A DNA stretch of 42,108 nt from Limisphaerales bacterium (GTDB taxonomy: Bacteria; Verrucomicrobiota; Verrucomicrobiia; Limisphaerales; JADLHS01), in contig JADLHS010000453.1 of the NCBI GenBank assembly GCA_020848635.1, positions 1-42,108 of the forward strand, given 5' to 3'. Below, piece after piece: positions 2,304 through 39,600 of the stretch; the stretch's first letter is position 1, and every line of letters begins with the position of its first letter. The notes below the pieces were generated by a model. That model had not been told where the DNA came from. It did no database searches and was given only the letters and a program-made list of their open reading frames with translations. The position numbers and the translations under genes are program-made.

Positions 2304-3719
2304 TCATGGGTTTACTTCGACCTTAAGCGTGATGGCATGCCGGCTGGAAAAACTGCGCGGGCACTGGACGACCAGCGCGTCGGCTTCCTGCGACCAGGTC
2401 AGCTTCTCGTCGCTCCCGAGGAGGCCTACGGAACGGATGCCCCCGGCGGTCGGAGCGGTGGATCGCCCGAGGGAGGTAATGCGGATTGACCCCGTTGGCA
2501 GCGCGAGGCACATCGCGTATATGGCGCCGGCTTTGGTCGTGAAACGAATATCGGATGGCTGAAAAACCTGCGTGCGCTCGGCGGCGTGCCCTTTGGCCGG
2601 TTGGGTCGGACCTTCGCCATGCACTTTCCATGGCTGCGTGCCGTAGATGGCTTCGCCGTTCACCCGGAGCCAATCGCCCATCTCGACGAGGCGCTGCTGC
2701 ATGATGACCGGAATGCGCCCATCCGCTGTGGGACCGATGTCGAGCAGCAGGTTGCCGCCCTTGGCAACCAGATTGACCAGCAGGCAGACTAGTCCGTAGG
2801 CGGACTGGTAATCATCAATCGTTTCGTTACGGTTGTAGCCAAAGCTGGCGCCGATGGCGCGGCACTCCTCGAACTTGCGATCCGCGTTCAGTTTGGTGTC
2901 ACCGCCAACTTCGCCATACTCGGTCGTGAAGTAGCCGCCGTGCCGGCTCCGCGTGTCCTTGCCCCAGCGATCGTCAATTACCACCTCATCGCGACCGGGA
3001 GATTCGTTGAACAACCACGCGAGCAACTCTTCGCTCTTCCACTCGGAACTGGAGTGCGCCCATTCGCCGTCAGCAAAAATGAGCGACGGCTGGTAGCGAT
3101 TAACGAGGTCCTTGAACTGCGGATGAAAGTGTTCGCGCACGAACCGCGGAAAATCCATTTGATAGACCGGGTTAAACCACTCGTAGAGCGAATAGTAGAA
3201 GCCCATTTTGAGCCCGCGGGCCCGCACCGCTTTGGCCAGATCGCCGCAAAGATCCCGGTGCGGCCCTTGGTCCACGCTGTTCCAGTTCCAACTGTCGGCG
3301 TTGGGCCAGAGACAGAAGCCCTCATGGTGTTTTGAGGTCAAAACCACATAGCGCGCGCCCGCCCGGACGAAGAGGTCCACCCACTGATCCGGCTCAAAAA
3401 GCTCGGCGGTAAACTTGGGGGCGAAGTCCTGATACTTGAATTGCTCGCCGTAGTGCTGGACGTGGAATTTCCATGTCGCGCCGTTCTTGTTTTGCATCGC
3501 ATCCCAATACCATTCGGCATAGCTGCCTTTGGCCCCCCAAGCGGGCACAGAATAGACGCCCCAGTGGATGAAGATGCCAAATTTCGCGTCATCGAACCAC
3601 CCGGGGATGGGACGTGAATCGAGTGATTTCCAATTGGGTTCGTATTTCTGGCCGACGGCGGGAGTCGCGCAGACACTCAGCACGAGGCCAGTCGCCAAAG
3701 TCAGAGCGGTCTTTTTCAT
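2304..3719 (-). CDS. alpha-L-fucosidase, GH29
   Basis: Secreted exo-enzyme that hydrolyses terminal alpha-L-fucose. The 471-residue length is normal for GH29. Residues 1-23 are a Sec signal peptide ending in AVG. The catalytic barrel starts at PGWFDDAKFGIFIHWG (about 39-54), the family hallmark. The HHEGF motif at 131-135 and the SLIFADGEW segment, where D217 is the expected nucleophile, are both intact. Residues about 375-470 form a C-terminal beta-sandwich. The ATG at 3719 puts the signal peptide at the N-terminus. It lies divergent to the TIM-barrel/SUMF gene across 361 bp and upstream of the GH36-like gene on the same strand. Fucose plus galactose removal fits pectic, xyloglucan or host glycans. 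Confidence 0.93.
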   Translation of the reverse strand: MKKTALTLATGLVLSVCATPAVGQKYEPNWKSLDSRPIPGWFDDAKFGIFIHWGVYSVPAWGAKGSYAEWYWDAMQNKNGATWKFHVQHYGEQFKYQDFAPKFTAELFEPDQWVDLFVRAGARYVVLTSKHHEGFCLWPNADSWNWNSVDQGPHRDLCGDLAKAVRARGLKMGFYYSLYEWFNPVYQMDFPRFVREHFHPQFKDLVNRYQPSLIFADGEWAHSSSEWKSEELLAWLFNESPGRDEVVIDDRWGKDTRSRHGGYFTTEYGEVGGDTKLNADRKFEECRAIGASFGYNRNETIDDYQSAYGLVCLLVNLVAKGGNLLLDIGPTADGRIPVIMQQRLVEMGDWLRVNGEAIYGTQPWKVHGEGPTQPAKGHAAERTQVFQPSDIRFTTKAGAIYAMCLALPTGSIRITSLGRSTAPTAGGIRSVGLLGSDEKLTWSQEADALVVQCPRSFSSRHAITLKVEVNP

Positions 3720-4080: not shown

Positions 4081-6231
4081 ATGTATTCGCGACGCAGATT
4101 CATTCGGACCAGCGTGGCTCTGGGCGCTGGCGTTGCGTTCCCCTTCAAAATCCACTCGGCGGCCGAAGCGCAACTGGAATTCGATCCCAGAAGCCCGCTG
4201 ATTTCCGCGCCGCGCGATCCCGCCGCCTGGCCTGAATTTAGAAATCGACTCGTAGCGTGGCGCGAGGAGAAGCAGCGGATGCTGAACTCCTCGGATGACC
4301 TCTACCAGCGTCCGGAATTTGGCTGGGTAAACCGCTGTTTCGCGTGCTGCTTTCTGATGCTGGGTGAGGAGAGTTTTTACGACCCGGCCCGCGGCGTGTT
4401 CCGGGTTAAGACGTTTCTGGAGCATGGCCGGCGCGAATTTGGCGGCTATGACGCGATCGTTTTATGGCATGCATATCCGCGCATCGGGTTCGACGAACGC
4501 AATCAATTCGATTTTTACCGGGACCTGCCGGGCGGGCTGCCCGGATTACGCAAGTTGGTCCGCGCCTTGCGCTCCCGCGGCGTGCAGGTGTTCATTGATT
4601 ACAACCCATGGGACACCGGAACGCGCCGCGAAGGCGGGAGCGATCTGGACCTGCTCGTGGAAATCGTTCGCGAAATTGATGCGGACGGCATCTTCCTCGA
4701 CACGCTGGATCAGGGCGCGGCCGGGTTTCGCGCCAAATTGGATGCGGCGCGCTCCGGAGTGGTGTTGGAGAGCGAAGGCGCATTGCCGGTGGAACGCATC
4801 AACGACCATCACTTGAGCTGGGCCCAGTGGTTTGCGGACAGTGAAGCGCCGGGGGTTTTGCGCAACAAATGGTTTGAGCGCCGCCACCTGCAACATCAGA
4901 TCAAACGCTGGGATCGGGACCACAGCGGCGAGTTGCACACCGCCTGGATGAACGGGAGTGGCATGATGGTCTGGGAAAACGTCTTTGGCCTATGGGTCGG
5001 TTGGAATGCGCGCGACCGCTGCATCCTCCGCACGATGCTGCCGATCCAACGCCGGTTTGCCAATATCTTCACCGGTGAGAACTGGACGCCACTCGTCCCC
5101 ACCGAACAGCCGGGTGTCTATGCGAGCGAATGGGGCGGCGACAATATACGGCTGTGGACGCTGGTGAACCGCTCGGAGAAAGGGGTTGACGGTGACTTGC
5201 TGAAGATTGCGACAACTGGAGAATGGTTTTTCGACCTCATCGTCGGAGAAGAAGTCACCCCGAAGCTCATGAACGGACACGTCAGGTTGCGCGGGCATAT
5301 TCCTCCTCGCGGGATCGGATGTTATGCCGCGTTTCGACCGAGCAAATCCCTGGATGCCAACTGGCGCGCCTTCCTCGCCCGTCAGCGAGCGTTGAACCGG
5401 CGAAAGGACTGGAACACGCGCTTTCCCGATCGCCAAACCGTACTGTTGCAACCGAACGCCACCCCGAGGTTGCCGCAAGCGCCGCCGGGCATGGTTGAGA
5501 TTCCAGCCGCCCGATTCGCGATGACCACCGAGTTTCGCGTTCGTGAGTGCGGCTTTTATGAATCGTCCGCGGAGCGGGGCTTGGTAGGGGCGGACTTGAA
5601 CCGGAGCAAGCTATTTACCCGTGAGGTCAGCCTGCCCCATTATGCGATGGATGAAACGCCGGTGACCAACGCCCAGTATTTCGAGTTCCTAAAAGCTTCG
5701 CGTTACCAGCCGCGGCACTCGGAGAACTTCCTTCGCCATTGGAACCACGGCACGCCGCCGGTGGGGATGGAAGCCCATCCGGTGGTTTATGTGGACCTGG
5801 CGGACGCCCGCGCTTATGCCCGCTGGAACGGTAAACGATTACCCACCGAGGAGGAGTGGCAGTATGCCGCCGAAGGCCCTCAGCACCACCTTTATCCGTG
5901 GGGTGATGCGATGGGCGCGGACATCTGCAATGACGGCCAGGCGGGCCGTACCACCGCCGTAACTAGCTTTCCGGCGGGGAGGTCTGCATTCGGCTGCTAC
6001 GACCTGTGCGGCAATGTCTGGCACTGGACGGAAAGCGAGCGCAAAGATGGGCGCACGCGTTTCTGCATTTTGAAAGGCGGAAGCTGGTTCAAAGCGCAGG
6101 GCTCAATCTGGTATGCCGACGGCGGTCCTGTGCCCTGCCGTTTCGCCGCAAAGTTCCTGCTAGTGTGGCCCGGCTTGGATCGCTGCTCAACCATCGGGTT
6201 TCGTTGCGTCGCCGATTTGACAGGGAGTTGA
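4081..6231 (+). CDS. Tat-exported TIM-barrel glycosidase-like protein fused to a SUMF1/FGE-like domain
   Basis: A 716-residue two-domain protein. The N-terminus carries a twin-arginine signal (SRRRFIR, 3-9, then a hydrophobic stretch), so it is probably exported folded. Residues about 50-420 look like a TIM barrel of a glycoside hydrolase: strands such as VQVFIDYNPWD (168-178), GIFLDTLD with D207, and VVLESEG with E230/E232 are where catalytic acids would sit. I do not recognise the family. Residues about 468-712 are an FGE-sulfatase (SUMF1-like) domain with PVTNAQY (527-533), KRLPTEEEWQYAA (585-597), YPWG (605-608), GNVWHW (644-649), LKGGSW (664-669) and GFRC (706-709). The two-cysteine active-site pattern of true formylglycine-generating enzymes is not evident, so the domain may bind ligand rather than modify sulfatases. 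No sulfatase is in the window. Confidence 0.75.
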   Translation: MYSRRRFIRTSVALGAGVAFPFKIHSAAEAQLEFDPRSPLISAPRDPAAWPEFRNRLVAWREEKQRMLNSSDDLYQRPEFGWVNRCFACCFLMLGEESFYDPARGVFRVKTFLEHGRREFGGYDAIVLWHAYPRIGFDERNQFDFYRDLPGGLPGLRKLVRALRSRGVQVFIDYNPWDTGTRREGGSDLDLLVEIVREIDADGIFLDTLDQGAAGFRAKLDAARSGVVLESEGALPVERINDHHLSWAQWFADSEAPGVLRNKWFERRHLQHQIKRWDRDHSGELHTAWMNGSGMMVWENVFGLWVGWNARDRCILRTMLPIQRRFANIFTGENWTPLVPTEQPGVYASEWGGDNIRLWTLVNRSEKGVDGDLLKIATTGEWFFDLIVGEEVTPKLMNGHVRLRGHIPPRGIGCYAAFRPSKSLDANWRAFLARQRALNRRKDWNTRFPDRQTVLLQPNATPRLPQAPPGMVEIPAARFAMTTEFRVRECGFYESSAERGLVGADLNRSKLFTREVSLPHYAMDETPVTNAQYFEFLKASRYQPRHSENFLRHWNHGTPPVGMEAHPVVYVDLADARAYARWNGKRLPTEEEWQYAAEGPQHHLYPWGDAMGADICNDGQAGRTTAVTSFPAGRSAFGCYDLCGNVWHWTESERKDGRTRFCILKGGSWFKAQGSIWYADGGPVPCRFAAKFLLVWPGLDRCSTIGFRCVADLTGS

Positions 6232-6387: not shown

Positions 6388-9300
6388 ATGTCACCTCAAC
6401 CCAAATCTTGCTCCTGCAGCCTCAACGCATCCGATTGCACATCGTCCCTCACCCGGCGGGAGTTTATCCGCTGGACCGGCCTGGCCGCCGCCGGCGCAAC
6501 GCTCGCTCGCTGGCCGGCGATTGCCGGACCATTCAAGGCGGAGGAGTTTGGGAAAATGATCCCCGCCGACAAGAAACTGAATCCCGCCTGGGTAAAGTCC
6601 TTGTTCGAGCGGGGCGAGCCCACCGTCTATCGCGGGGCCGAACTGGAAAAGATTGGAATGCCCATCGGTGGGATATGTGCGGGCCAACTCTATCTGGGCG
6701 GCGACGGCCGGCTTTGGCATTGGGATATCTTCAATCTGCCGCAACCCTCGAACTTCAGCGACACTGGCGGTCCCAATTATGCCCACCCGCCCAAGCCGGC
6801 GTCACCCATCGAACAGGGCTTTGCTCTCAAGCTCACGTCTGAGGGCAAGACCGAGATCCGGACGCTTGATAGCCGCGGCTACAATCCGCAACACACCGCT
6901 TTTCGCGGGCAGTATCCCATGGCTTTCGTGGATTACCGCGACCCAGCGCTGCCGGTAGCGGTGTCTCTGGAAGCGTTCTCGCCATTCATTCCCTTGAACG
7001 TGGCGGATTCCTCGTTGCCCGCTACCGTCATGCGCTTCACGGTGAAAAACACCAGCGCGTCGCCGGTGGTTGTCGAACTGGCCGGGTGGATTGAAAACGC
7101 CGTCTGCCTCGGCAGCGGGCGAGCCGGATTGGGCCAGCGGCGGAATCGCCTGCTGCGCGAATCTGGGTTGGTGGTTGTTCACAGCACCGCCGAAGCGTTG
7201 CCAGTCAAGGAACGGCCCGCCCCACGCGCAGAGATTGTCTTTGAGACGTTCGAGAATGGATATGGTTCCTGGACGGTGGACGGCGAGGCATTTGGGAGGG
7301 AGCCCGCCAAAGGCACGCTGCCGGGGCAGCAAACCGTCAGCGGTTTCTCAGGCAGCCGGCTCGTAAATTCATTCCTCAATGGCGACACGACAAAGGGGCG
7401 GTTGACTTCACCCTCGTTCATGGTTGGGCGGAAGTTCATCACTTTTCTCATCGGCGGCGGCGGCCATGCCGGGCGCACCTGTCTGAATCTGCTGCTCGAT
7501 GGACATACCGTGCGCACCGCGACCGGTCGCAATGAGGAGCACCTCGCCGGGCAGGAGTGGGACGTGAGTGAGTTCGAGGGGCGTAGCGCGCGTCTCGAAA
7601 TCGTGGACCAAGCCACCGAGGGGTGGGGCCACATCAACGTGGACCAGATCGTGTTCACGGACGAGCCACCCTCGGCGCGCACGCCGCTGGACGCCCAAGA
7701 CGATTTTGGCTCAATGGGCTTGGCGGTGCTGGGCGATGGCGCAAACGCTTTTGCGCAAACGCAGATCGCCATCGAACCGGCGGACGCGGTTTTTGCGGAC
7801 GCGGCGGTGACGACGACTGAAGCGGTGTTACCTTTCGGCCGCAAACTCATCGGCGCCGTCGGCCGCAAGCTGACGCTTGCCCCCGGCGCTCAAGGCGAGG
7901 CGACCTTCATCGTGGCCTGGTTCTTCCCCGGGCTGAGGCGACGAACGCTGGGACCGCTCCAGGATATTGCGAAACTCCGTCGAGCGTATGCGAACCGTTT
8001 CCAATCGGCGGCGGACGTGGCCCGCTACGTGACCCGCGAGTTTGACCGGCTGGCCGGCCAGACGCGGCTCTGGCATCAAACCTGGTACGACTCGACCCTG
8101 CCCTGCTGGTTTCTCGATCGCACCTTCGCCCCGATTTGCACGCTGGCCACCAGCACATGCTACCAATTTGACAGCGGCCGGTTTTACGCCTTCGAGGGCG
8201 TGTATTGCTGCCAGGGTACCTGTCAGCACGTGTGGAATTACGCGCAATCCGTCGCCCGCATCTTCCCGGAATTGGAGCGCGATCTGCGTGAGCGGACCGA
8301 CTTCGGCACGGCCTGGCACGAGAACGGCGCCATGGATTACCGCGGTGAATGCGCCCGGCAGGTCGCACACGACGGCCAGTGCGGCGTGATTCTCCGTGCC
8401 TGGCGCGAACACCAGATGTCGTCGGATGACCGCTACCTCCGCGCCACCTGGCCGCGCATCCGCAAATCCATTGAGTTCATGATCGAACTCGACGGTGACG
8501 AGAACGGTCTGCTCGAAGGGGAGCAATACAACACGCTCGATGCGGCGTGGTTTGGGCCCATGGCGTGGATCAGTTCGTTCTACGTGGCGGCGTTGCGCGC
8601 CGGCGAAGCGATGGCCCGCGAGTTGGGCGATACCACGTTCGCGGAACGCTGCCGCCGCATTGCCGAGCGCGGCTCGGAGCAGCTCGTGCAGCAGCTGTAC
8701 AACGGCGAATTCTTTATCCACAAACCGGACCCGAAGCATCCCGAGGCAACCAACACCAACGACGGCTGCCACATTGACCAGTTGATGGGACAGGCTTGGG
8801 CCTTGCAGGTCGGGTTGCCACGCGTAGTTGCCGCCAAGGAGTCGCGCTCGGCGCTCGAAGCCATCTGGAAGTACAACTTCACGCCCGATGTCGGACCGTT
8901 CCGTGATCGGTCGGCCATCAAGGGCGGACGCTGGTATGCGATGGCTGGTGAAGGGGGCGTCGTTATGACCACTTTTCCGCGCGGCGGCATGGAGCAGGCG
9001 ACGGGAAAAGGGGGCTTTGGTTACTATTTTAACGAGGTTTGGACCGGGCAGGAGCATCAGTTGGCGGCGCACATGATTGCGGAGGGAATGGTCGAGCAGG
9101 CATTCGTGATCACGCGCATTTTGCATGATCGTCATCACGCGGCCCGCCGCAATCCCTACAACGAGGTCGAGTGCTCGGACCATTACACCCGGGCAATGGC
9201 GAGCCACGGCAGTTTCATCGCCGCGTGCGGCTACGAGCACAACGGCCCGCAAGGTCACCTTGGGTTTGCCCCGCGCCTGACCCCGGAGCGGTTCAAAGCG

Positions 9301-9573
9301 CCATTCACGACCGCGGAAGGCTGGGGCACGTTTGAGCAAGTGCGCAACGCGGTAAATCAGGTTGAGAAAATCCTCCTCCGCTACGGTAGTCTGCGGCTCA
9401 AAACCCTTTCGTTCGCGGTGGCCGAAAGCCAGCCGCCGCGTAGTGTGCAGGCGCGCTTGAACGGTCAGGCCGTGCCAGCTTCCCTGCAAGTTTCCGGCGC
9501 CCGGGCCGTGGTGACCCTTGCGCGGGAAACGACCCTCCCGAGCGGTGGGCTGCTGGAAGTGGCGCTGGCTTGA
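6388..9573 (+). CDS. Tat-exported GH116 family glycosidase with inserted jelly-roll-like module
   Basis: Large 1061-residue enzyme of the GBA2/GH116 family, whose members hydrolyse beta-glucosides, beta-xylosides or glucosylceramide. A twin-arginine signal (TRREFIRW, 22-29) precedes a hydrophobic segment. The N-terminal GH116 beta-sandwich starts at EKIGMPIGGICAGQ (87-100). The C-terminal (alpha/alpha)6 barrel contains YAFEGVYCCQGTCQHVWNYAQ-like residues 600-620, with E603 the candidate nucleophile, and NTLDAAWFG (715-723), with D718 the candidate acid/base. Residues about 283-426 interrupt the sandwich with a segment (FETFENGYGSWTV onward, SFLNGD, FLIGGG, WGHINVDQIVF) that resembles the jelly-roll insert often seen near GH32 N-termini in PVC bacteria. 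It lies 156 bp after the TIM-barrel/SUMF gene, same strand, so co-transcription is likely. Confidence 0.85.
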   Translation: MSPQPKSCSCSLNASDCTSSLTRREFIRWTGLAAAGATLARWPAIAGPFKAEEFGKMIPADKKLNPAWVKSLFERGEPTVYRGAELEKIGMPIGGICAGQLYLGGDGRLWHWDIFNLPQPSNFSDTGGPNYAHPPKPASPIEQGFALKLTSEGKTEIRTLDSRGYNPQHTAFRGQYPMAFVDYRDPALPVAVSLEAFSPFIPLNVADSSLPATVMRFTVKNTSASPVVVELAGWIENAVCLGSGRAGLGQRRNRLLRESGLVVVHSTAEALPVKERPAPRAEIVFETFENGYGSWTVDGEAFGREPAKGTLPGQQTVSGFSGSRLVNSFLNGDTTKGRLTSPSFMVGRKFITFLIGGGGHAGRTCLNLLLDGHTVRTATGRNEEHLAGQEWDVSEFEGRSARLEIVDQATEGWGHINVDQIVFTDEPPSARTPLDAQDDFGSMGLAVLGDGANAFAQTQIAIEPADAVFADAAVTTTEAVLPFGRKLIGAVGRKLTLAPGAQGEATFIVAWFFPGLRRRTLGPLQDIAKLRRAYANRFQSAADVARYVTREFDRLAGQTRLWHQTWYDSTLPCWFLDRTFAPICTLATSTCYQFDSGRFYAFEGVYCCQGTCQHVWNYAQSVARIFPELERDLRERTDFGTAWHENGAMDYRGECARQVAHDGQCGVILRAWREHQMSSDDRYLRATWPRIRKSIEFMIELDGDENGLLEGEQYNTLDAAWFGPMAWISSFYVAALRAGEAMARELGDTTFAERCRRIAERGSEQLVQQLYNGEFFIHKPDPKHPEATNTNDGCHIDQLMGQAWALQVGLPRVVAAKESRSALEAIWKYNFTPDVGPFRDRSAIKGGRWYAMAGEGGVVMTTFPRGGMEQATGKGGFGYYFNEVWTGQEHQLAAHMIAEGMVEQAFVITRILHDRHHAARRNPYNEVECSDHYTRAMASHGSFIAACGYEHNGPQGHLGFAPRLTPERFKAPFTTAEGWGTFEQVRNAVNQVEKILLRYGSLRLKTLSFAVAESQPPRSVQARLNGQAVPASLQVSGARAVVTLARETTLPSGGLLEVALA

Positions 9574-15042: not shown

Positions 15043-17454
15043 TCACTCGCTGAACGCCTGCAACTCCGCGCAGCTTGAGGTTGACTGTTGCGGCTTGTCG
15101 CCCGAGGCCGGTTTGCCCACGACGCGCACACCCCACGTTTTGATCGGGCGGTCGAGTTTGCAGATCACATGCTCGCCACCCTCCATTTCAGCGGAGTTTT
15201 TGGCGGTGGTGGCTGGATAATCAGTGATCTCCGCCACCGTTTCCCAGACGCCCGCTTTCGTTCGTTTCACCTGGACGCGGGGCTTGCCAGCGGTGGCGTC
15301 AAACCAGCCGCCGTTGGCGGATGTCTTGCCGTGCGCAAACACGACGCGCTTCACCATCACTGGCTCATTCAGTTCCACGGCAAACCAGTCTTCCTCCGCC
15401 AACTTGCCGTCGGAATTGGCCACGAAAGTTTCAAAGTCTTCGTCGGTCATCGAACCATCGGTATGGTCCGGTCGGGAGAGGCTGGCCTGGCCGTCCAGAA
15501 GTAAATTGCCGCGGTACAGTTCCTGGGATAACGGCAGCCAGACTTTGTATCGGGCGCCCGTGCTCCCGGCGTCAGCAAACGGGATCAGCCGGATGGTCAC
15601 CGGCGTCCCGATCTTGATTCCAGGCATCGGTTTACGGGTGACGGCACGGATGCGAAAGACCTGGGCGCCGGGCCAGGTCTTGAATTCATCTGGCGCCGGC
15701 TCGGGCGTCATCTTGAGCTTGGACAGTTCCGGGCTGGCCACGGCGATGCCATTGAGTGGCATCGTCGGCTGCGGGATCGCTGAACCCCGCTTTCTAGCCG
15801 ACCGTGCGGTGTCGCATAATGCTTGGTCCGCCGCCAGGACCAGCGGTCCATACAACAGGGCCACTTTGCCGAGATTTGTATGATCCCCCAGCACCAGGCG
15901 TGGTTCGAGCTTCAGTCGGAGGGCAATCCGGTCGCCCTTTTTCCATGAGCGCTGTATGGCGACATAGCCAGCGGTGTTCGGGTCTATCGCGAATTTCCGA
16001 CCGTTGACTTCAATTGTCGCGCGGTGACACCAGGCCGGTATCCGGAGTTTGACCGCAAAGGTTCCGGTTTCCGCCGGATCAACCGCGATGCGAATCCATT
16101 CCTTGCTGGGATACTCGGTTGCGGTGGTCAGTGTGACGGGGGTGCCGTCGCGCAGTCTTAGCTGTGCGGTTCCGGCATCGTAAAGGTTCAGTACGATGCC
16201 ATCGCTATCCGTGGTCGTCGAAAACGTGGGGACCAGCGCAACGCCGCGCGGCCCGCTCGAAAGGCAGCATTGGCCGTCCAGGTTGGTGGTGTAGGGTTTA
16301 CGGCCTTCCATTTGCACGTAGTAACCCCAAGCCCCACCATCACACCGCTGGGCGCCGAGCAACTGGTTCAATACAACATTTTCAAGCTGGTCGGCGAACC
16401 GCGCCTCGCCCGTGAGGCGCACCAATTGCGCGTTGAATTGCAGCCAGGTGACGGTGACGCAGGTTTCACCCATGATGTTGTTGTTCGGCAGATCGTAATC
16501 GTCGTGAAAGACCTCCCAGTAGCTGGCGGCGCCGGTGATGTAGAGGCGATGAGCTACGATGTCCTGCCAGGCGTTCAGACAGGCTTGCAAGGCATCGGGG
16601 TCGCCGGTCGTCCGGTAATACTCGAGGATGCCATTGAAGCAGGAGATCATCTCGTAGGCTTTGCCATTGCCGATTTTGTCCACCCGTTTGGTCGTCAACA
16701 GCGTGGAGATGATTTTGGGTCCGTGCGGCTGCTCCCAGGCGCGGAGGATGTATTTGCAGAATTCAAGATAACGCGGCTCGCCCGTCAGGCGATACAGGAG
16801 GATCATCGGTTCCAGCACGCTGGTTGGGGCCATGCCGACCTGCGGTCCGGATTTGATAATGTCGCGTTTGCCCGGTTCGTCCCCAAACGTGTTGCACAAC
16901 AAGTCCGCCATGCGCCGACAGGCGGCCAGTGGCGCGGGGTTGCCGGTGTAACGCGCATAGGTGATCAGGCCGAGGAGATTGTATTTGTGCGCCCAAACAT
17001 CCCATGACCGCCATCGGTTGCTCTCGACGTAGGTGCCGAGGTAGCCGTCCTCCATCTGGCATTTGACCAGTTCCGCCGCAATGTAATCGAGCTTCTCCCG
17101 CAACGCCGGATCGCCGGTATATACCCAGGCCAGCGTGGCGGCATGCAACCATTTGCCCACATGCTCGCCATCCCACGACTGGCGACCGGGTCGCTTGCGG
17201 TAGCCTTCCAGCAAGCGTGTGGCATCGAGCTTAACCAGACGGTTGGCTTCATTACCTCGAATGCGCTCACCCACCCAGCCGGTCAATCGCACCCGGTCCG
17301 GCACTTGAAAATCCTGGCGGTCCGGGATCGCGGGAACGATTATTTCGCGAATGGGCGTGATCTCCACCGCGTGGAGAGAGAACCGGGCCAGAAGCGTTAC
17401 CGCCAAAACCAGACTGGGACTCGTCCATTTTCGGGCATTCGGAGTTTTGTTCAT
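15043..17454 (-). CDS. GH127 beta-L-arabinofuranosidase (DUF1680) with C-terminal discoidin-like domain
   Basis: Secreted 803-residue enzyme expected to cleave beta-L-arabinofuranosides from arabinan side chains, glycoproteins or rhamnogalacturonan II. A Sec signal peptide covers residues 1-29. The (alpha/alpha)6 barrel spans about 60-420. Against the family prototype HypBA1, the acid/base Glu corresponds to E314, and the zinc ligands and nucleophile correspond to E330 and C332 (GETC) and C396-C397 (QCCLSSG), with C396 as the expected nucleophile. All are present. Beta-sandwiches follow, then residues about 665-800 resemble an F5/8-type discoidin module (DGSMTDEDFETF, FAVELNEPVMVKRVVF, WGVRVVG). 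It is divergent from the sialidase-fold gene across 124 bp. Confidence 0.9.
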   Translation of the reverse strand: MNKTPNARKWTSPSLVLAVTLLARFSLHAVEITPIREIIVPAIPDRQDFQVPDRVRLTGWVGERIRGNEANRLVKLDATRLLEGYRKRPGRQSWDGEHVGKWLHAATLAWVYTGDPALREKLDYIAAELVKCQMEDGYLGTYVESNRWRSWDVWAHKYNLLGLITYARYTGNPAPLAACRRMADLLCNTFGDEPGKRDIIKSGPQVGMAPTSVLEPMILLYRLTGEPRYLEFCKYILRAWEQPHGPKIISTLLTTKRVDKIGNGKAYEMISCFNGILEYYRTTGDPDALQACLNAWQDIVAHRLYITGAASYWEVFHDDYDLPNNNIMGETCVTVTWLQFNAQLVRLTGEARFADQLENVVLNQLLGAQRCDGGAWGYYVQMEGRKPYTTNLDGQCCLSSGPRGVALVPTFSTTTDSDGIVLNLYDAGTAQLRLRDGTPVTLTTATEYPSKEWIRIAVDPAETGTFAVKLRIPAWCHRATIEVNGRKFAIDPNTAGYVAIQRSWKKGDRIALRLKLEPRLVLGDHTNLGKVALLYGPLVLAADQALCDTARSARKRGSAIPQPTMPLNGIAVASPELSKLKMTPEPAPDEFKTWPGAQVFRIRAVTRKPMPGIKIGTPVTIRLIPFADAGSTGARYKVWLPLSQELYRGNLLLDGQASLSRPDHTDGSMTDEDFETFVANSDGKLAEEDWFAVELNEPVMVKRVVFAHGKTSANGGWFDATAGKPRVQVKRTKAGVWETVAEITDYPATTAKNSAEMEGGEHVICKLDRPIKTWGVRVVGKPASGDKPQQSTSSCAELQAFSE

Positions 17455-21869: not shown

Positions 21870-23648
21870 TCACTCGCCAGGATACCGGTAGTTAAAGCGG
21901 CCTTCGGGTGCGACATCGCCACTAACGTAGAAATCCATGATCTCGCCTGGGTGTTGGAGATTATCCGCCCACTTGAAATCAATTGTCGTCTTGGTCCCGC
22001 GCCGGGAAAGACCCAACGCCTTGCGCGGAACGACCAGTTGTAGTTCGTTCCCTTCAACCCGAACGCTGACTGGGGAAACCCGCTCCCAATTCCAGCCGCC
22101 CATGTTCTTCTCCAACCAAGAATTGCCCTTCGGATCGAGGACCCGGTTTACCATGTAGTCGTAACCTTCCCAGCCCGTGGCCGGATTTTGGTCCGCGTCA
22201 ATCAATAGCCACATCCAATTGCTTCCGGTGTTGGGCGTGAGGGCTTCGCGGGTGCGGACGTAGAAATGAATCTCTTTCGCATCGTGCGCGACTTTGCCTG
22301 CGATCAGATCGTTGCGTCCGGAGTAGTTCGTGTAGTGCTGACCCGCCACGCCGGCGAAGTCGCGCGGCATCGTTTCGCCAACATGATCCCCGAACTCCGG
22401 TGTTACGTCGCGCCATTGTTCAAAGCCGTCTCTGATGCGGATGGTTTTGGGCGGGGACGCTTTCGGCAGGGCGGGCGCGCCCTTGTACCGGCGGACATTG
22501 GCCACCAGTTGCCAGTAGTAATTGTCGCCGTGCCCACCCGTCATCGGTTCGATGTCGCGACTGAATTCCTGATCGAATTGATCTACAAAGACCAATGGTC
22601 CTTTCGGTTCGCCCCAGCGGCCGGCGATCCATTCGTTCCAGCCGGTGACCAGCACGAAGGGCGGTTTGAGTTCAAGCGCGCGCTGCCACTGTTCCTGGGC
22701 GTTGTGGCCGTGGTTCACCGCGTTCGTCGTCGAATCCTGCCGGCCATCATGAAAGCTCCGGCCCCTCGCTTCACCGGAACTCATGTTCGTGACCTTGCCG
22801 TCTTTGGCGCGAAGATTCTGGGCCACGGAAACAACCACCTGTTCCGGCTGGGTCGGATCATCGGTGTAACCATACGGTTGCGGGTAGGTGGCCTCCCAAT
22901 GCCAGGCGTACGGGGTGTTGGTGAGTGTGAACGGCCAGTGCGCGGTACGCAGCGTGAAGAATGCGCGCAACTCCGGCGTGACGGCGGCCGGATCGCAGAT
23001 CAGCAGCGGCTTGCCCTGCCAGCGAAACCAGGAATCCGGGAATTCTCCGGGCTTGTAAAACTCATTGTAAAGCGTCTGCGCCGTGGCCCCAGCATGGGTG
23101 TTGAGCATGAAAGCGAGTTGCGGGGCGCGCCCGCCGGTATTGCGGACTTCCTGGAACACCTTGCACAGCGCTAGGTAAACCGTCCGGTAAGTCTCCGCGT
23201 TGGTGGCGTCCAGGATCAAGGTGTCCACCCCGGCGTCCGCGAGCAATTGCGCGTGACGGCGGATCACCCACGGATCAGCGCTGCGGTAATAGCCATACAG
23301 CGGTTCACTCCAGAAATGATATTCGCCGATCCGGCCCCAGAGGGGTGAATCGGGCTGCTTCAGCGCGTCGGGGTCGCGTGCCAGAATTCTGCCAATGTCG
23401 TATGGGCCGTCCCAGTTTTGGCTTTTGGGGATGGGCATCTCGGGAACGAGCCACTGAAAATAAAAGATGCCCACAAAGCGATTTGTCTGCGGCGGGCCGG
23501 CGGCTTCCGCCGTGGGCAATTTGCGTCCGAGCGCATCCGTCGCCGGCCACGGCGTGCCGGGATTGCTGGCGTCGGCCGGGAGAACTGCCAGCAGCAAAAG
23601 GGCCGCGAGCGTCAGTTCCCGCCGGGGTTGAGGTCGGGGAATCATCAT
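21870..23648 (-). CDS. secreted GH99/GH71-like protein with C-terminal CBM9-like domain
   Basis: A 592-residue protein from the ATG at 23648 (a TTG 14 codons upstream is less likely because the signal peptide starts here: Arg-rich n-region then LTLAALLLLAVLPADAS). Residues about 55-380 form a TIM barrel of the GH99/GH71-like or WbsX-like kind: VGIFYFQW, GEYHFWSEP, LLADAGVDTLILDATN, PQLAFMLNTHAG, YAWHWEA and VTGWNEWIAGRW (WNEW at 337-340). Such enzymes act inside alpha-mannan or on related glycans. Residues about 410-592 are a beta-sandwich like CBM9 (EIHFYVRTRE, WLLIDADQNPATGWEGYDYMVN). It is the last gene of a minus-strand group with the serine hydrolase and PL11-like protein. Substrate unassigned. 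Confidence 0.7.
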   Translation of the reverse strand: MMIPRPQPRRELTLAALLLLAVLPADASNPGTPWPATDALGRKLPTAEAAGPPQTNRFVGIFYFQWLVPEMPIPKSQNWDGPYDIGRILARDPDALKQPDSPLWGRIGEYHFWSEPLYGYYRSADPWVIRRHAQLLADAGVDTLILDATNAETYRTVYLALCKVFQEVRNTGGRAPQLAFMLNTHAGATAQTLYNEFYKPGEFPDSWFRWQGKPLLICDPAAVTPELRAFFTLRTAHWPFTLTNTPYAWHWEATYPQPYGYTDDPTQPEQVVVSVAQNLRAKDGKVTNMSSGEARGRSFHDGRQDSTTNAVNHGHNAQEQWQRALELKPPFVLVTGWNEWIAGRWGEPKGPLVFVDQFDQEFSRDIEPMTGGHGDNYYWQLVANVRRYKGAPALPKASPPKTIRIRDGFEQWRDVTPEFGDHVGETMPRDFAGVAGQHYTNYSGRNDLIAGKVAHDAKEIHFYVRTREALTPNTGSNWMWLLIDADQNPATGWEGYDYMVNRVLDPKGNSWLEKNMGGWNWERVSPVSVRVEGNELQLVVPRKALGLSRRGTKTTIDFKWADNLQHPGEIMDFYVSGDVAPEGRFNYRYPGE

Positions 23649-23806
23649 GGCAACCAATCGTTGCCGTCCGTATTCAGTTTTGGCAATCAAATACCAACCC
23701 GGAGGGCTGGCGGCATCGTCCCGCTCTCCGCAAAGTCGCGGGTGCTACTTGCATCCAAATGGGCAAAAAGCGCTCGCGGTACCAGGCCGGTTCCAAGTAG
23801 CCCTCC
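23649..23806 (-). promoter_or_regulatory. structured leader of the GH99-like gene
   Basis: Three inverted repeats lie in this spacer: GGAGGGCT/AGCCCTCC (23701-23708, 23799-23806), GCTACTTG/CAAGTAGC (23744-23751, 23794-23801), and GGCAAC/GTTGCC (23649-23654, 23660-23665). The first two share bases and cannot form together. The third abuts the GH99-like start codon and would mask its ribosome site. Confidence 0.4.
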
Positions 23807-35209: not shown

Positions 35210-36502
35210 ATGAATAGTTATGCCTACGAAGCCGTGGATGCCGCGGGAGCCAGTTCTGCCGGCGTACTTGAAGTCGCGAGCCAGAGCGAGGCGGTCCGCC
35301 GCATCAAGGAAATGGGGTTGTTCCCGCTCCGGGTCGCGCAACGCCCGCAAAGCCGGCTCCCGCGAGTTCGGGCCAAATCGCGCGCGAGGGGCCAGAACGG
35401 TAGCTTTTCGATTGCGCTGTTTGGCGAACGCGTGAAGCCGGCGGCGCTCACGGTATTGACCCGGCAAATCGCCACGCTTGTGGATGCCGGTTTGCCGTTG
35501 CTGCGCGGCTTGAGGATTCTGGAGCAACAGGAGTCCAATCGCACCCTGAAGCGGATTCTGGGCGAGGTCGGCGAGGGCATCGAAGCCGGCAGCCAGTTCT
35601 CGGAGGCGATCGCGGCGCATCCGAAAGTGTTCAACCGGCTTTACCTGAACATGGTCCGAGCCGGCGAACTGGGCGGGGCGCTGGAGCTCACCCTCCGACG
35701 GCTCGCGGAGTTCATGGAGAAGGCACAGAAGATCAAGAGCAAGGTGAAGTCCGCCATGTTCTATCCGGCGGCGGTGATGTTGGTTGCCACGGCCATCATG
35801 GGCTTGATGCTGGTGTTCGTCATCCCGCGGTTCAAAGAAGTGTTCAGCGGGTTGACCGGCGGGGCCCCGCTGCCGGCCTTCACAACCCTCGTGCTCAACA
35901 TCAGCGATTTCACCAAGCACCACTTTGTCCTCGCCCTGCTGGCCCTGACGGTGGTGGGATTTGCGCTAGCTCTGGGCGTGCGAACGAAAATGGGCCGGGT
36001 GGTGTTCGATCAGTTGAAGCTTAAACTGCCGATTTTCGGCCCGGTGTTTCGCAAGGCAGCGATCTCGCGGTTCGCCCGGACGCTTGGCACGTTGTTGAAC
36101 AGCGGGGTGCCGGTGTTGCAGGCGTTAACCATCGTGCGCGAGACGGCGGGCAACCTCGTGGTGGGGAATTTGATTTCGCAGGTGCATGACGGGGTCAAGG
36201 AGGGCGAGACCATCACTGCGCCGTTGCGGACGTCATCCATTTTCCCGCCCATGATCGTCGGCATGGTGGACATCGGAGAGCAGACGGGCGCGTTGCCGGA
36301 CATGTTGATGAAGATTGCCGACGGCTGTGACGACGAAGTGGACAACGCCGTGAGCTCCATGATGTCGTTGCTCGAACCCATCATGATCGTCTTTCTGGCC
36401 GTCGTGGTGGGCAGTATTGTTATCGCGATGTTTTTGCCGATCATCGGCATCATCAACAATGGCGTGGGCAGCCCAGGCGCCGGAGACGGTTCGGATTCGT
36501 AA
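35210..36502 (+). CDS. type II secretion / type IV pilus inner-membrane protein GspF/PilC
   Basis: Platform protein that couples the assembly ATPase to pseudopilus or pilus growth in the inner membrane. I chose the ATG at 35210, giving 430 residues and the family opening MNSYAYEAVDAAGASSAGVLE. Two T2SSF domains are visible: the first contains LTRQIATLVDAGLPLLRGL and FNRLYLNMVRAGELGGALE; the second contains FARTLGTLLNSGVPVLQALTIV and MVDIGEQTGALPDML. Three membrane helices follow the first domain (YPAAVMLVATAIMGLMLVFVIP), lie between domains, and end the protein (PIMIVFLAVVVGSIVIAMFLP). No other gsp/pil gene is in the window, so it is an orphan here. Confidence 0.92.
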   Translation: MNSYAYEAVDAAGASSAGVLEVASQSEAVRRIKEMGLFPLRVAQRPQSRLPRVRAKSRARGQNGSFSIALFGERVKPAALTVLTRQIATLVDAGLPLLRGLRILEQQESNRTLKRILGEVGEGIEAGSQFSEAIAAHPKVFNRLYLNMVRAGELGGALELTLRRLAEFMEKAQKIKSKVKSAMFYPAAVMLVATAIMGLMLVFVIPRFKEVFSGLTGGAPLPAFTTLVLNISDFTKHHFVLALLALTVVGFALALGVRTKMGRVVFDQLKLKLPIFGPVFRKAAISRFARTLGTLLNSGVPVLQALTIVRETAGNLVVGNLISQVHDGVKEGETITAPLRTSSIFPPMIVGMVDIGEQTGALPDMLMKIADGCDDEVDNAVSSMMSLLEPIMIVFLAVVVGSIVIAMFLPIIGIINNGVGSPGAGDGSDS

Positions 36503-36650
36503 CGGAGAAGTTCATGCTGGCGGGTCGCGGTTTGGCTTCCCGCCGGGATCGGTTTTGCGAGCTTACCCTCAAGGATCTTGCCTTGGCAAAAAACTTGGCA
36601 GGAAATCAATCACATGCGAGACTTCGGTTGGTTGGGTTCAAGAACCGCCT

Positions 36651-39600
36651 ATGAAAACTCACGGAATGCTTCTCGGGTTTTGCCTGCTCCTTTCACTGAC
36701 CGCCTCCGCCACCGTACGTTACGTGGCCCTGAACAACCCCGGCTCCGCCGCGCCATTCACGTCCTGGGCCACGGCGGCCACGAACATCCAGGATGCGGTG
36801 GATGCTGCCGTGACCGGCGATGAAATCGTAGTGACCAATGGCATTTATATCGGTGGCGGGCGGGCGGTGTTTGGGACGATGACCAACCGCGTCGTGGTGG
36901 ACAAGGCCATCACCGTGCATAGCGTCAACGGCCCTCAGTTCACGCACATTCAAGGCCGGCTTGCGGCGGGCACCGTCTTTGGGGATACGGCGATTCGTTG
37001 CGTTTACCTCGCCGATGGCGCCAGCCTTACTGGCTTTACGCTGACCAATGGGGCGACGCACAGTTCGGGAAACACAATCTTCGAACTGAGCGGCGGTGGC
37101 GTTTGGTGCAATTCAACGAGCGCTGTGGTTTCCCGGTGCGTCATCGCCAGCAATCATGCGAAAGTTCAGGGCGGCGGTGCGTACGGCGGCACGTTGAACA
37201 ACTGTCTGTTCACCGGCAACTCCGCCACGAACGCTGGTGCGACTTTTTCCAACGTGTTGAACAACTGCACCATCGTCGGGAATACCTCGTTGCTCGGCAT
37301 GGGCGGGGCGCACTCGGCGACGCTGAACAACTGCATCGTCTATTTCAACACCGGCCAGTACCCGGCGAATTATCAGCAGTGCAGCTTGCACTATTGCTGC
37401 ACGACGCCGCAACCTGCGGCGGGCAGCGGCAACCTCACCGACGATCCATCATTCGTGGATGTGCTCAACGGCAATCTGCGGTTACAGGCCAATTCGCCCT
37501 GCGTCAATTCGGGTGCCAATGACCACGCGCCGTCCGGCCCGGACCTCGATGGCAACCCGCGCATCTTCAACAGCATCCTGGACATGGGGGCTTACGAATA
37601 TCAGGGAGTGATTGTACCGACCGCGCCCTACTTCGTCAGCGCCTCCCAACCCGCTGATCAAAGCGTGATGATCGGCTCCAACGCAACTTTTGCGGCGACC
37701 GCCGGCGGTACGCCGCCATTGTCCTACTGGTGGCGCTTTAATGGGACGAATCTCAACAGCCCGATCACCAATTCGCTGACCCTGACCAATGTTCAACTGA
37801 CCAATGCGGGCAATTACTTCGTCGTTGTTTCCAATTCCGTCGGCGCGGTCACGAGCCGGGTTGCGCTCCTGACCGTGTTGCTGCCAGAGACGCCCGGTAC
37901 ACATTATGTGGACGTGAACGGCGCAAGCCCCGCATCCCCTTTCACCAATTGGACCACCGCCGCGCGGACCATTCAGGACGCCGTTGACGTCGCCGCGCCC
38001 GGCGACGAAATCGTCGTGACCAATGGTGTTTATGCCACCGGCGGGCGGGCGGTTTACGGCACGTCGCTCAACCGGGTTGCCGTCAACAAGGCCGTCACCA
38101 TCCGCAGCGCCCGGGGGCCGCAATTTACCTCCATCCAGGGAAACCAGGTTACCGGCACGACCAATGGAGACGCCGCCGTGCGTTGTGCATACCTGGCTAA
38201 CGGCGCCAGCTTGATCGGGTTCACGCTCACCAATGGCGCCACGCGCAGTGCTGGGGATTACCTGACTGAGCAATGCGGCGGCGCGCTCTGGTGTGGCACG
38301 ACGGGCGTCGTTTCCGTAGCGGTGATGGTTTCCAACTGCGTCATCACCGGTAACGCGGCCGCTTACCGGGGCGGCGGGGCCTATCAGGGCACGCTCTACA
38401 ATTGCAGCCTCTCCGGCAACACCGCCAGTTGGGGCGGCGGGGCGGGGTGGGCGACGCTGTTCGACTGCGAGTTGATCCACAACTCAGCCAGCTATGGCGG
38501 CGGGCAGGCTTACGCGACTTTGAGCGACTGCACGTTGAGCGCCAACTCAGCGGCGACCGCCGGCGGCGGTGGGGCTTACGGCACGCTCTACCGATGCCGT
38601 CTCAGCGGCAACTCAGCCGCCGAGGGTGGCGGCCAGTTTTTTGGGACGCTCCACTACTGCACGCTCTCCGGCAACGGGGCCTTCAGTTCGTATGGTGGCG
38701 GCATGGCGTTGAGTTCACTCAACAATTGCCTCCTCGTCGGCAACAGCGCTCCGACTGGCGGCGGCGCGTACTACGGGTCGCTGAGCAACTGCACCCTGTA
38801 CGCAAACACGGCCAGCACCTCCGGCGGCGGCGCGTCCATCAGTTCGCTCGCCAATTGCATCGTCATATCCAACACGGCGCCCAGCGGGGCGAACTATTCC
38901 GGCGGCAGTTTTGCTTGGTGTTGCACGACGCCTCTGCCCGCCGGGGGCCAGGGCAACATCGCTGCGGACCCGCGGTTCGTGGATGCCTCAGCCGGCAACC
39001 TACGGCTGCAATCCAATTCGCCGTGCATCAACGCCGGCATCAACGCCGCTCTTGGCGGCACCAATGATCTCGACGGCAATCCTCGTATCTCCAGCGGCAT
39101 CGCCGATATCGGTGCATACGAGTACCAGGGGAACCTGGCTCTGATCCTCACTTCGCAACCCACAAACCAGACCGTGCTGGCCGGCACGACCGTGACGTTC
39201 AATGTGACCGTCTGGGGCACGCCGCCCTTCAGCTACCAGTGGAGCCTCGCCGACTCGGCTTTGGCAGGCGCCACGAACGCCACGCTCGTTCTCCCCAACG
39301 CGCAGCCTGGCCAGTCCGGCAACTATGCTGTCACCGTGACCAATATCGTTGGCGCCGTCACCAGCAGCAACGCGCTCCTCCAAGTAATCGCCCCGGCCAT
39401 CCATTACGTGGATGCCACCAGCGCGAATCCGTTGGCGCCGTTTACGAGTTGGGCCACGGCGGCCTCGACGATCCAGCAGGCCGTTGACGCCGCCCTGCCG
39501 AGCGAGGAAATCGTCGTCACCAACGGCCGCTACGCCACTGGCGGCCGTACCATATACGGCTCGCTCACAAATCGCGTGGCCGTGAATAAAGCGGTCACCG

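Follow-up and report, generated by a model that had tools for sequence, protein, structure and literature searches.

Enzymes of glycoside hydrolase (GH) family 13 are marked by an Arg two residues before the nucleophile, an Asp at the end of strand 7, and a domain B after strand 3, and the folds of formylglycine-generating enzymes (FGEs) are C-type-lectin-like. According to PMC8106489, GH101 has a GH13-like barrel and shows similarity to GH129, and a passage of PMC7279497 reports SUMF2 as lacking catalytic function. This study concerns a gene at positions 4081..6231 (+ strand) of a 42,108-nucleotide stretch of Limisphaerales bacterium DNA (contig JADLHS010000453.1; the whole stretch is hereafter the window), which encodes, in a complete open reading frame (ORF) with an ATG start, a 716-residue protein joining a barrel to an FGE-like domain. 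Judging from the sequence and the predicted model, this protein is probably an exported enzyme that cleaves glycosides and belongs to an undescribed family, built on the alpha-amylase (GH13/GH101/GH129-like) superfold and equipped with an obligate, non-catalytic FGE-like module.

Architecture, fold and conserved residues

The initial annotation of this locus had proposed a barrel fused to an FGE-like domain, and this fusion was borne out by the present data. The FGE/SUMF-like domain (residues ~463-716; 5467..6228, + strand) gave a Pfam FGE-sulfatase match (PF03781, residues 502-710, E=2.9e-39), with CalU17 and SUMF2 as its closest structures, and the N-terminal half is predicted to form a barrel. 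A scan with the barrel half, using one genome per species, yielded 84 confirmed relatives, the best 80 of which were kept; counts over 80 refer to these. The FGE domain lies in the same frame as the barrel sequence and C-terminal to it in 77/80 relatives, and because these hold both domains in one ORF, the domain fusion is beyond chance. The protein begins with a Tat-like signal peptide, MYSRRRFIRTSVALGAGVAFPFK... (residues 1-28; 4081..4164, + strand; Pfam TAT_signal), and its twin-arginine-like N-terminus, MYSRRRFIRTSVALGAG, matched PF10518 at residues 2-21 with E=0.0074, which is under the Pfam cut-off.

The AlphaFold2 models, built on a 75-row alignment, reached a predicted local distance difference test (pLDDT) score of 92.6 and a predicted template modelling (pTM) score of 0.91 at full length, and 94.1 and 0.93, respectively, for the barrel unit alone (residues 41-420), with residues 1-29 below a pLDDT of 50. 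DSSP analysis of the predicted model placed a GH13-like (beta/alpha)8 barrel at residues ~41-330 (4201..5070, + strand), with strands at 88-93, 125-129, 169-174, 203-206, 228-231, 245-249, 270-274, and 294-297, followed by the C-terminal beta-sandwich of the glycosidase unit at residues ~331-420 (5071..5340, + strand; strands within 334-418). When the matches to the predicted model were ranked with Foldseek and VIA-align, alpha-amylase-superfamily structures came top for the barrel and sandwich together (Z ~20-23), and the GH13 structural alignments extended to residue 420. The GH13 maltogenic amylase 1sma aligned over 346 residues (Z 22.6, root-mean-square deviation 4.0 A, 14% identity), GH13 enzymes made up nearly all of the 50 listed structural matches, including neopullulanase, GlgE, trehalose synthase, and branching enzymes, and the GH129 structure 5opq also matched the barrel and sandwich (Z 20.1). 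The barrel and sandwich are thus predicted to adopt the alpha-amylase (GH13-like) superfold.

The barrel had been called unrecognised. This holds for Pfam, where residues 31-430 searched alone returned zero families at E<=10, but the predicted fold is the alpha-amylase superfold with its own sandwich, and the sequence is related to DUF6259. A match of the N-terminal half to a known non-catalytic family, named beforehand as one of two refuting outcomes, was found neither in Pfam nor in a profile search of the Protein Data Bank (PDB). A PDB sequence search with the window protein retrieved FGE-fold relatives only (SUMF2 first, together with ToxD, CalU17, EgtB-type proteins, and true FGEs), and the family-profile search retrieved the same relatives and two isolated short matches to the barrel half, to a designed protein (E=0.0007, 34 residues) and a kinetochore protein (E=1.9), both of which were taken as chance.

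For the alignment, relatives were retained when both domains lay in the ORF, the barrel scored at least 290 bits and spanned at least 300 residues, and the gene did not run off at the 3' side, which gave 77 sequences; the window copy (L001), the frame-broken L057, and the truncated L101 were left out and the window protein was added, resulting in 75 rows. The invariance counts cover fusion proteins by construction, because the rows kept needed both domains. Thirty-one columns were invariant in 75/75 sequences, which reach down to 39% identity to the window protein, and 30 of the 31 fall in the barrel unit, many of them at strand ends. The acidic residues that had been noticed at strand ends in the initial annotation were confirmed at the C-terminal ends of predicted strands 4 and 5: D207 (codon 4699..4701, + strand), the proposed nucleophile, closes strand 4 (203-206), and E232 (4774..4776, + strand), the proposed acid/base, closes strand 5 (228-231), each being present in 75/75 rows, with E230 kept in 68/75. 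Judged by strand position in the model, D207 and E232 plausibly sit at the GH13 nucleophile and acid/base positions. The beta2-alpha2 loop (residues 130-150; 4468..4530, + strand) contains the invariant residues G136, D138, R140, Q142, D144, and P150, and D124, N175, D178, D202, H269, R276, and N291 are invariant as well.

The copper-site Cys pair of formylglycine-generating enzymes, whose presence was the other outcome named as refuting, is absent, as the initial annotation had noted. In the segment LKGGSWFKAQGSIWYADGGP (residues 664-683; 6070..6129, + strand), which corresponds to the site of this pair, there is no C-x4-C, and across residues 664-688 the motif was found in 0/74 rows (one of the 75 rows lacks that stretch), with a single Cys close to the site in 3 rows. 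A conserved GS-x-WY-xx-GG segment, seen here only in the barrel and FGE fusion family, replaces the pair. The closest solved structures of this domain were CalU17 (6vqp, Z 23.4, 36% identity) and SUMF2 (1y4j, Z 22.9, 34%), FGEs followed at Z ~22, and the Treponema variable protein 2y3c was also among the matches. Because the Cys pair is absent, formylglycine would not be made by the known copper-cysteine route, and active formylglycine generation was rejected. Sulfatase maturation was likewise rejected as the local role: in agreement with the earlier remark that no sulfatase is nearby, none (PF00884) occurs on the window's contig, and all 24 matches in the genome lie on other contigs. Sulfatase genes were found near 6 relatives and formed no consistent link.

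The genome of the window (G000) carries 14 FGE-like domains (PF03781, L192-L205) alongside its 24 sulfatase matches. None of these 14 loci matched a simple pattern that expects the copper-site Cys pair downstream of the GGS motif, a result that may reflect sulfatase maturation by another route in this genome, or a search pattern or locus cut that was too strict.

Several data bear on how the two halves are related. The FGE domain is conserved to a degree similar to that of the barrel, with a mean majority residue of 0.59 vs. 0.61 and with 37/254 vs. 53/376 columns conserved at 95% or more. The distance matrices of the barrel and FGE parts were correlated (r=0.81; 0/1000 permutations as high), which indicates joint inheritance of both halves, not contact. 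In loop residues 131-140, the mean pLDDT was 69 for the barrel alone and 92 for the full protein; because it rises when the FGE domain is present, we infer from the models that the FGE domain packs on the barrel at the beta2-alpha2 loop, on the strand-end, active-site side. The FGE part looks like an obligate piece of the enzyme rather than an optional accessory, as far as sequence comparison can tell. The earlier suggestion of an accessory domain with a structural or sugar-binding role is therefore retained in part: a non-catalytic structural or substrate-binding role is favoured, but the domain looks obligate.

Family distribution and genomic neighbourhoods

The protein had also been put forward as a candidate for a new glycosidase family, and no match of the barrel to a characterised family was found. 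It is not a one-off, as the fusion is widespread among the relatives. Aligned members belong to Actinomycetota, Planctomycetota, Verrucomicrobiota, Armatimonadota, Bacteroidota, Acidobacteriota, and Deinococcota, and a copy on a Sphingopyxis plasmid adds Pseudomonadota, giving at least eight phyla; as many relatives are metagenome bins, some of these phylum labels may be wrong. Named strains include Micromonospora, Leifsonia, Agreia, Calidithermus, Spirosoma, and Sphingopyxis. Of 146 genomes, comprising that of the window and related ones, 16 gave a match at E<=0.01, which in ten of them covered almost the entire barrel. Two full-length plasmid-borne relatives are publicly annotated as 'SUMF1/EgtB/PvdO family nonheme iron enzyme'. 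Our literature search, in which most subscription journals and CAZy lay outside coverage, found no paper naming the barrel and FGE family, and it is solely for this reason that the family is called undescribed.

The three exceptions to the fused arrangement comprise L088, with the FGE part in an adjacent frame, L097, which runs off its contig, and L102, with half a barrel and no FGE match. No close FGE-free form with an intact barrel was seen; only remote DUF6259 proteins lack the FGE domain. Among the 77 fused relatives, L033, L057, and L095 have a barrel split by a frame break, and the FGE part shares its frame with the second barrel piece only; L033, L057, L088, and L095 are frame-broken gene copies in metagenome bins. 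A 351-residue ORF at L017:976-2028 (- strand) joins a middle piece of the barrel directly to a portion of the FGE domain, representing an internal deletion or an assembly error, and L048:4917-5735 holds a partial second barrel fragment just upstream of an intact gene, probably a decayed tandem copy. In some relatives, long stop-to-stop frames hinted at additional N-terminal domains; this was rejected, as nine such stretches and one C-terminal extension gave no meaningful Pfam match; because the start in L066 is most likely a GTG at 5905, long stop-to-stop frames in GC-rich genomes are mostly spurious.

Within the window, the fusion gene lies between a GH29 alpha-L-fucosidase gene (2304..3719, - strand; PF01120, E=3e-124) and a gene for a GH116-like protein with a Tat-like signal (6388..9573, + strand; PF04685 and PF12215), and a GH127-like beta-L-arabinofuranosidase is encoded at 15043..17454 (- strand; PF07944, E=4e-58). 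The window also holds BNR and RGL11-like genes around the fusion gene, an ORF for an NPCBM and melibiase-like protein touching its left end (3-2060, - strand), a GH99-like gene (21870-23690, - strand) with a weak Pfam match under the cut-off (E=8e-5), and a gene (36417-40733, + strand) whose 1438-residue product contains immunoglobulin I-set domains and gave weak matches of the chondroitinase-B/DUF5123 type. GH29 recurs in 3/80 loci and five other window genes match in one locus each; an operon with the downstream GH116 gene is unsupported, a GH116-like match being found in 1/80 loci. Elsewhere, a Tannerella bin has the order SusC-SusD-fusion gene-RhaT-URO-D-PfkB, Spirosoma has a GH28 gene immediately upstream of the fusion gene, and Sphingopyxis has the order TonB receptor-ribokinase-fusion gene-beta-L-arabinofuranosidase-domain protein-CoA transferase. 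The Tannerella SusC/SusD, the Spirosoma GH28, the Sphingopyxis arabinofuranosidase, and the window's GH29, GH116, and GH127 genes together support a context of carbohydrate use.

A recurrent operon was observed mainly in Actinomycetota. Counted over 82 loci (the 80 plus two plasmid copies), a class III CoA-transferase lies near the fusion gene in 19/82 (17/18 Actinomycetota, Calidithermus, and Sphingopyxis), a CitE/HpcH-type lyase in 18/82, a ribokinase/PfkB-type kinase in 17-19/82 by two queries, and an ADP-ribosylglycohydrolase-family (ADP_ribosyl_GH) gene in up to 20/82, including two Planctomycetota and one Bacteroidota. These genes are most often arranged as ADP_ribosyl_GH, ribokinase, fusion gene, CoA-transferase, and lyase. 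The loci are L066, L064, L067, L069-L073, L075, L076, L078-L080, L082-L084, and L087 (Actinomycetota), L054 (Calidithermus), and L207 (Sphingopyxis plasmid); some carry an esterase too, and the parts vary between loci. Two frequent clusters of neighbours, L082:2252-4015 and L070:9298-10323, were regarded as shadow frames of the ADP-ribosylglycohydrolase and CoA-transferase/lyase genes and discarded. ADP_ribosyl_GH genes are rare: eight of the genomes with these loci (47 Mb) contain 28, 15 of them inside the fetched loci by coordinate comparison, a count that is a description and not a test, because these genomes were chosen for having one there.

In the Micromonospora locus L066, the upstream genes encode an ABC permease, a sugar-binding protein, and two ADP_ribosyl_GH proteins, and the nearest NCBIfam types, all under the naming cut-offs, were ribokinase, succinate-glutarate/mesaconate CoA-transferase, and CitE/RipC lyase. 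Since the probable GTG start of the fusion gene (5905) overlaps the ribokinase stop and the pre-barrel sequence is unlike a signal peptide, the actinobacterial members are probably cytosolic. The window protein is apparently exported, the window has no such operon, and the only ADP_ribosyl_GH match in its genome lies on a different contig.

From its gene content, the operon looks like an undescribed catabolic pathway, and it is the strongest functional lead; the hypothesis that it suggests is a conjugate whose breakdown would yield a ribose-like pentose together with a di- or tricarboxylic acid. Pectin, RG-II, and arabinogalactan, which the initial annotation had listed for assays, are conjectural substrates; the best evidence from the operon indicates a pentose joined to a carboxylic acid. 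A more specific proposal, offered tentatively and rather unlikely as a whole, is a new GH family in which a former FGE was recruited into an amylase-fold active site and which acts on a ribose-like pentose conjugated to a hydroxy-dicarboxylic acid. Under this proposal, the actinobacterial route would comprise a sugar ABC importer, followed by ADP-ribosylglycohydrolase-family hydrolases and the fusion enzyme; the ribokinase would take the sugar, and the class III CoA-transferase and CitE/RipC-like lyase would take the acid.

Proposed mechanism and rival explanations

For an exported enzyme of this kind, most likely acting on alpha-glycosides, a double displacement with retention is proposed, in which D207 at the end of strand 4 would attack the anomeric carbon, and E232 at the end of strand 5 would protonate the leaving group and then activate water. 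The FGE-like module would pack against the barrel close to its catalytic side, where it would order the invariant beta2 loop (D138-R140-Q142-D144) and probably help bind the substrate. Sequence, conservation, fusion of the domains, predicted fold, and missing cysteines are direct results, whereas we infer hydrolysis and its retaining course, the alpha stereochemistry, what the FGE domain does, and which substrate is cleaved. Several points weigh against it. The equivalence of D207 and E232 to the GH13 pair comes from strand counting, not from superposed side chains. Unlike in GH13, the Arg at two residues before the nucleophile is replaced (position 205 is Phe in 72/75 and Tyr in 3/75), and there is no conserved Asp at 275-279 after strand 7 (270-274), where R276 is found in 75/75; hhalign gave no significant relation (probability 5-26%) to the GH13 proteins found in related genomes. 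Any fusion inherited as one gene would show a correlation like that between the barrel and FGE parts, the rise in pLDDT points to an interface indirectly, and the genes beside the window protein are not conserved across relatives.

The many invariant acids and polar residues besides D207 and E232 leave room for a barrel of other chemistry, such as a transglycosidase, a phosphorylase, an inverting hydrolase (using D138, D144, or D178), or an enzyme that attacks an N-ribosyl or a non-sugar acyl bond. GH13-like folds include transferases and phosphorylases, with GlgE, trehalose synthase, and branching enzymes among our matches, and a CoA-transferase and a C-C lyase are part of the actinobacterial operon. 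We nevertheless regard this as unlikely, as D207 and E232 occupy the positions of a retaining pair, and the Tat-like export signal and the SusC/SusD context suit hydrolysis better. It is very unlikely that the protein is a dead pseudoenzyme in which barrel and FGE domain both merely bind glycans. Two GH13 hallmark residues are missing, the FGE half lacks the cysteines, and FGE-fold relatives without known catalysis exist, such as SUMF2 according to a passage of PMC7279497; however, the 31 invariant columns over 75 sequences, all but one in the barrel unit and many of them where strands end, form an active-site pattern, and cytosolic-looking members are placed within a catabolic operon.

Two further alternatives concern the C-terminal half. 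An active FGE domain, working as an oxidase or as a formylglycine-generating enzyme with unusual chemistry and served by the barrel as its delivery module, would agree with the nonheme iron enzyme annotation of the two full-length relatives, with the FGE fold at Z 22-23, and with the 24 sulfatase matches in the genome, but is extremely improbable given that the Cys pair occurs in 0/74 rows, that GS-x-WY-xx-GG occupies the would-be copper site, and that no sulfatase lies on the contig. The FGE domain might instead be a carbohydrate-binding module only, with no role in the active site, as the C-type-lectin-like nature of its fold and ligand-binding relatives such as Treponema 2y3c could suggest. 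We find this doubtful, since the domain lies C-terminal to the barrel in 77/80 relatives and is as strongly conserved as the barrel, and since the only FGE-free forms seen are the remote DUF6259 proteins, none being close with an intact barrel.

If an exported glycosidase with an obligate FGE-like module is the correct interpretation, the name 'nonheme iron enzyme' refers to the half without catalytic function and masks a family of uncharacterised glycosidases that spans at least eight phyla, whose members include plant-associated actinobacteria and a Bacteroidota polysaccharide utilization locus. It would also be a clear case of an FGE fold that lost its function and turned into an obligate part of a carbohydrate enzyme, and the conserved operon offers a specific, testable path to its substrate.

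Comparison with known families

The closest solved folds of the C-terminal domain are SUMF2/pFGE, CalU17, and ToxD, of which SUMF2 is likewise reported as non-catalytic in a passage of PMC7279497; unlike the fusion protein, these chains of 292-328 residues have no glycosidase barrel. SUMF1, the formylglycine-generating enzyme, has the fold and PF03781 in common with the fusion family, which differs in lacking the copper-site Cys pair.

With GH13, the N-terminal half shares a (beta/alpha)8 barrel followed by a C-terminal beta-sandwich (Z 20-23), an Asp at strand 4, and a Glu at strand 5. However, domain B is missing, as a 13-residue loop separates the end of strand 3 (residue 174) from the following helix, which begins at 188, and the GH13 profile PF00128 gave no match at E<=10 in the window protein. 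The attached FGE domain is a further difference from GH13 enzymes such as maltogenic amylase, neopullulanase, and GlgE (clan GH-H). Because the Arg two residues before the nucleophile, the strand-7 Asp, domain B, and a sequence-profile match are all missing, GH13 membership was rejected; the barrel plausibly works like a GH-H enzyme, which does not imply membership of a GH family. ZgGH129 (5opq, 8rzk) matches at Z ~20 with ~10% identity, and the fusion barrel differs from GH101 and GH129 in giving no Pfam match to them at E<=10 and in its other domain architecture.

The closest sequence family of the barrel is DUF6259 (PF19773), which is uncharacterised; our literature search, with most subscription journals outside its coverage, found no paper mentioning the name. 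PF19773 gave no match at E<=10 with the barrel of the window protein, and DUF6259 core proteins align weakly to the barrel profile (probability 25). The seven DUF6259 proteins scanned are 628-1351 residues long, and none has an FGE domain. DUF6259 is widespread (e.g., L133-L140 and L163-L169), with a comparable Asp/Glu pair where aligned. Remote DUF6259 proteins, found by profile search within the phylum and identified by Pfam, aligned with the barrel profile at an hhalign probability of 99.8 (E=8e-28) over 312 columns of the barrel and sandwich, and both D207 and E232 are matched in this alignment.

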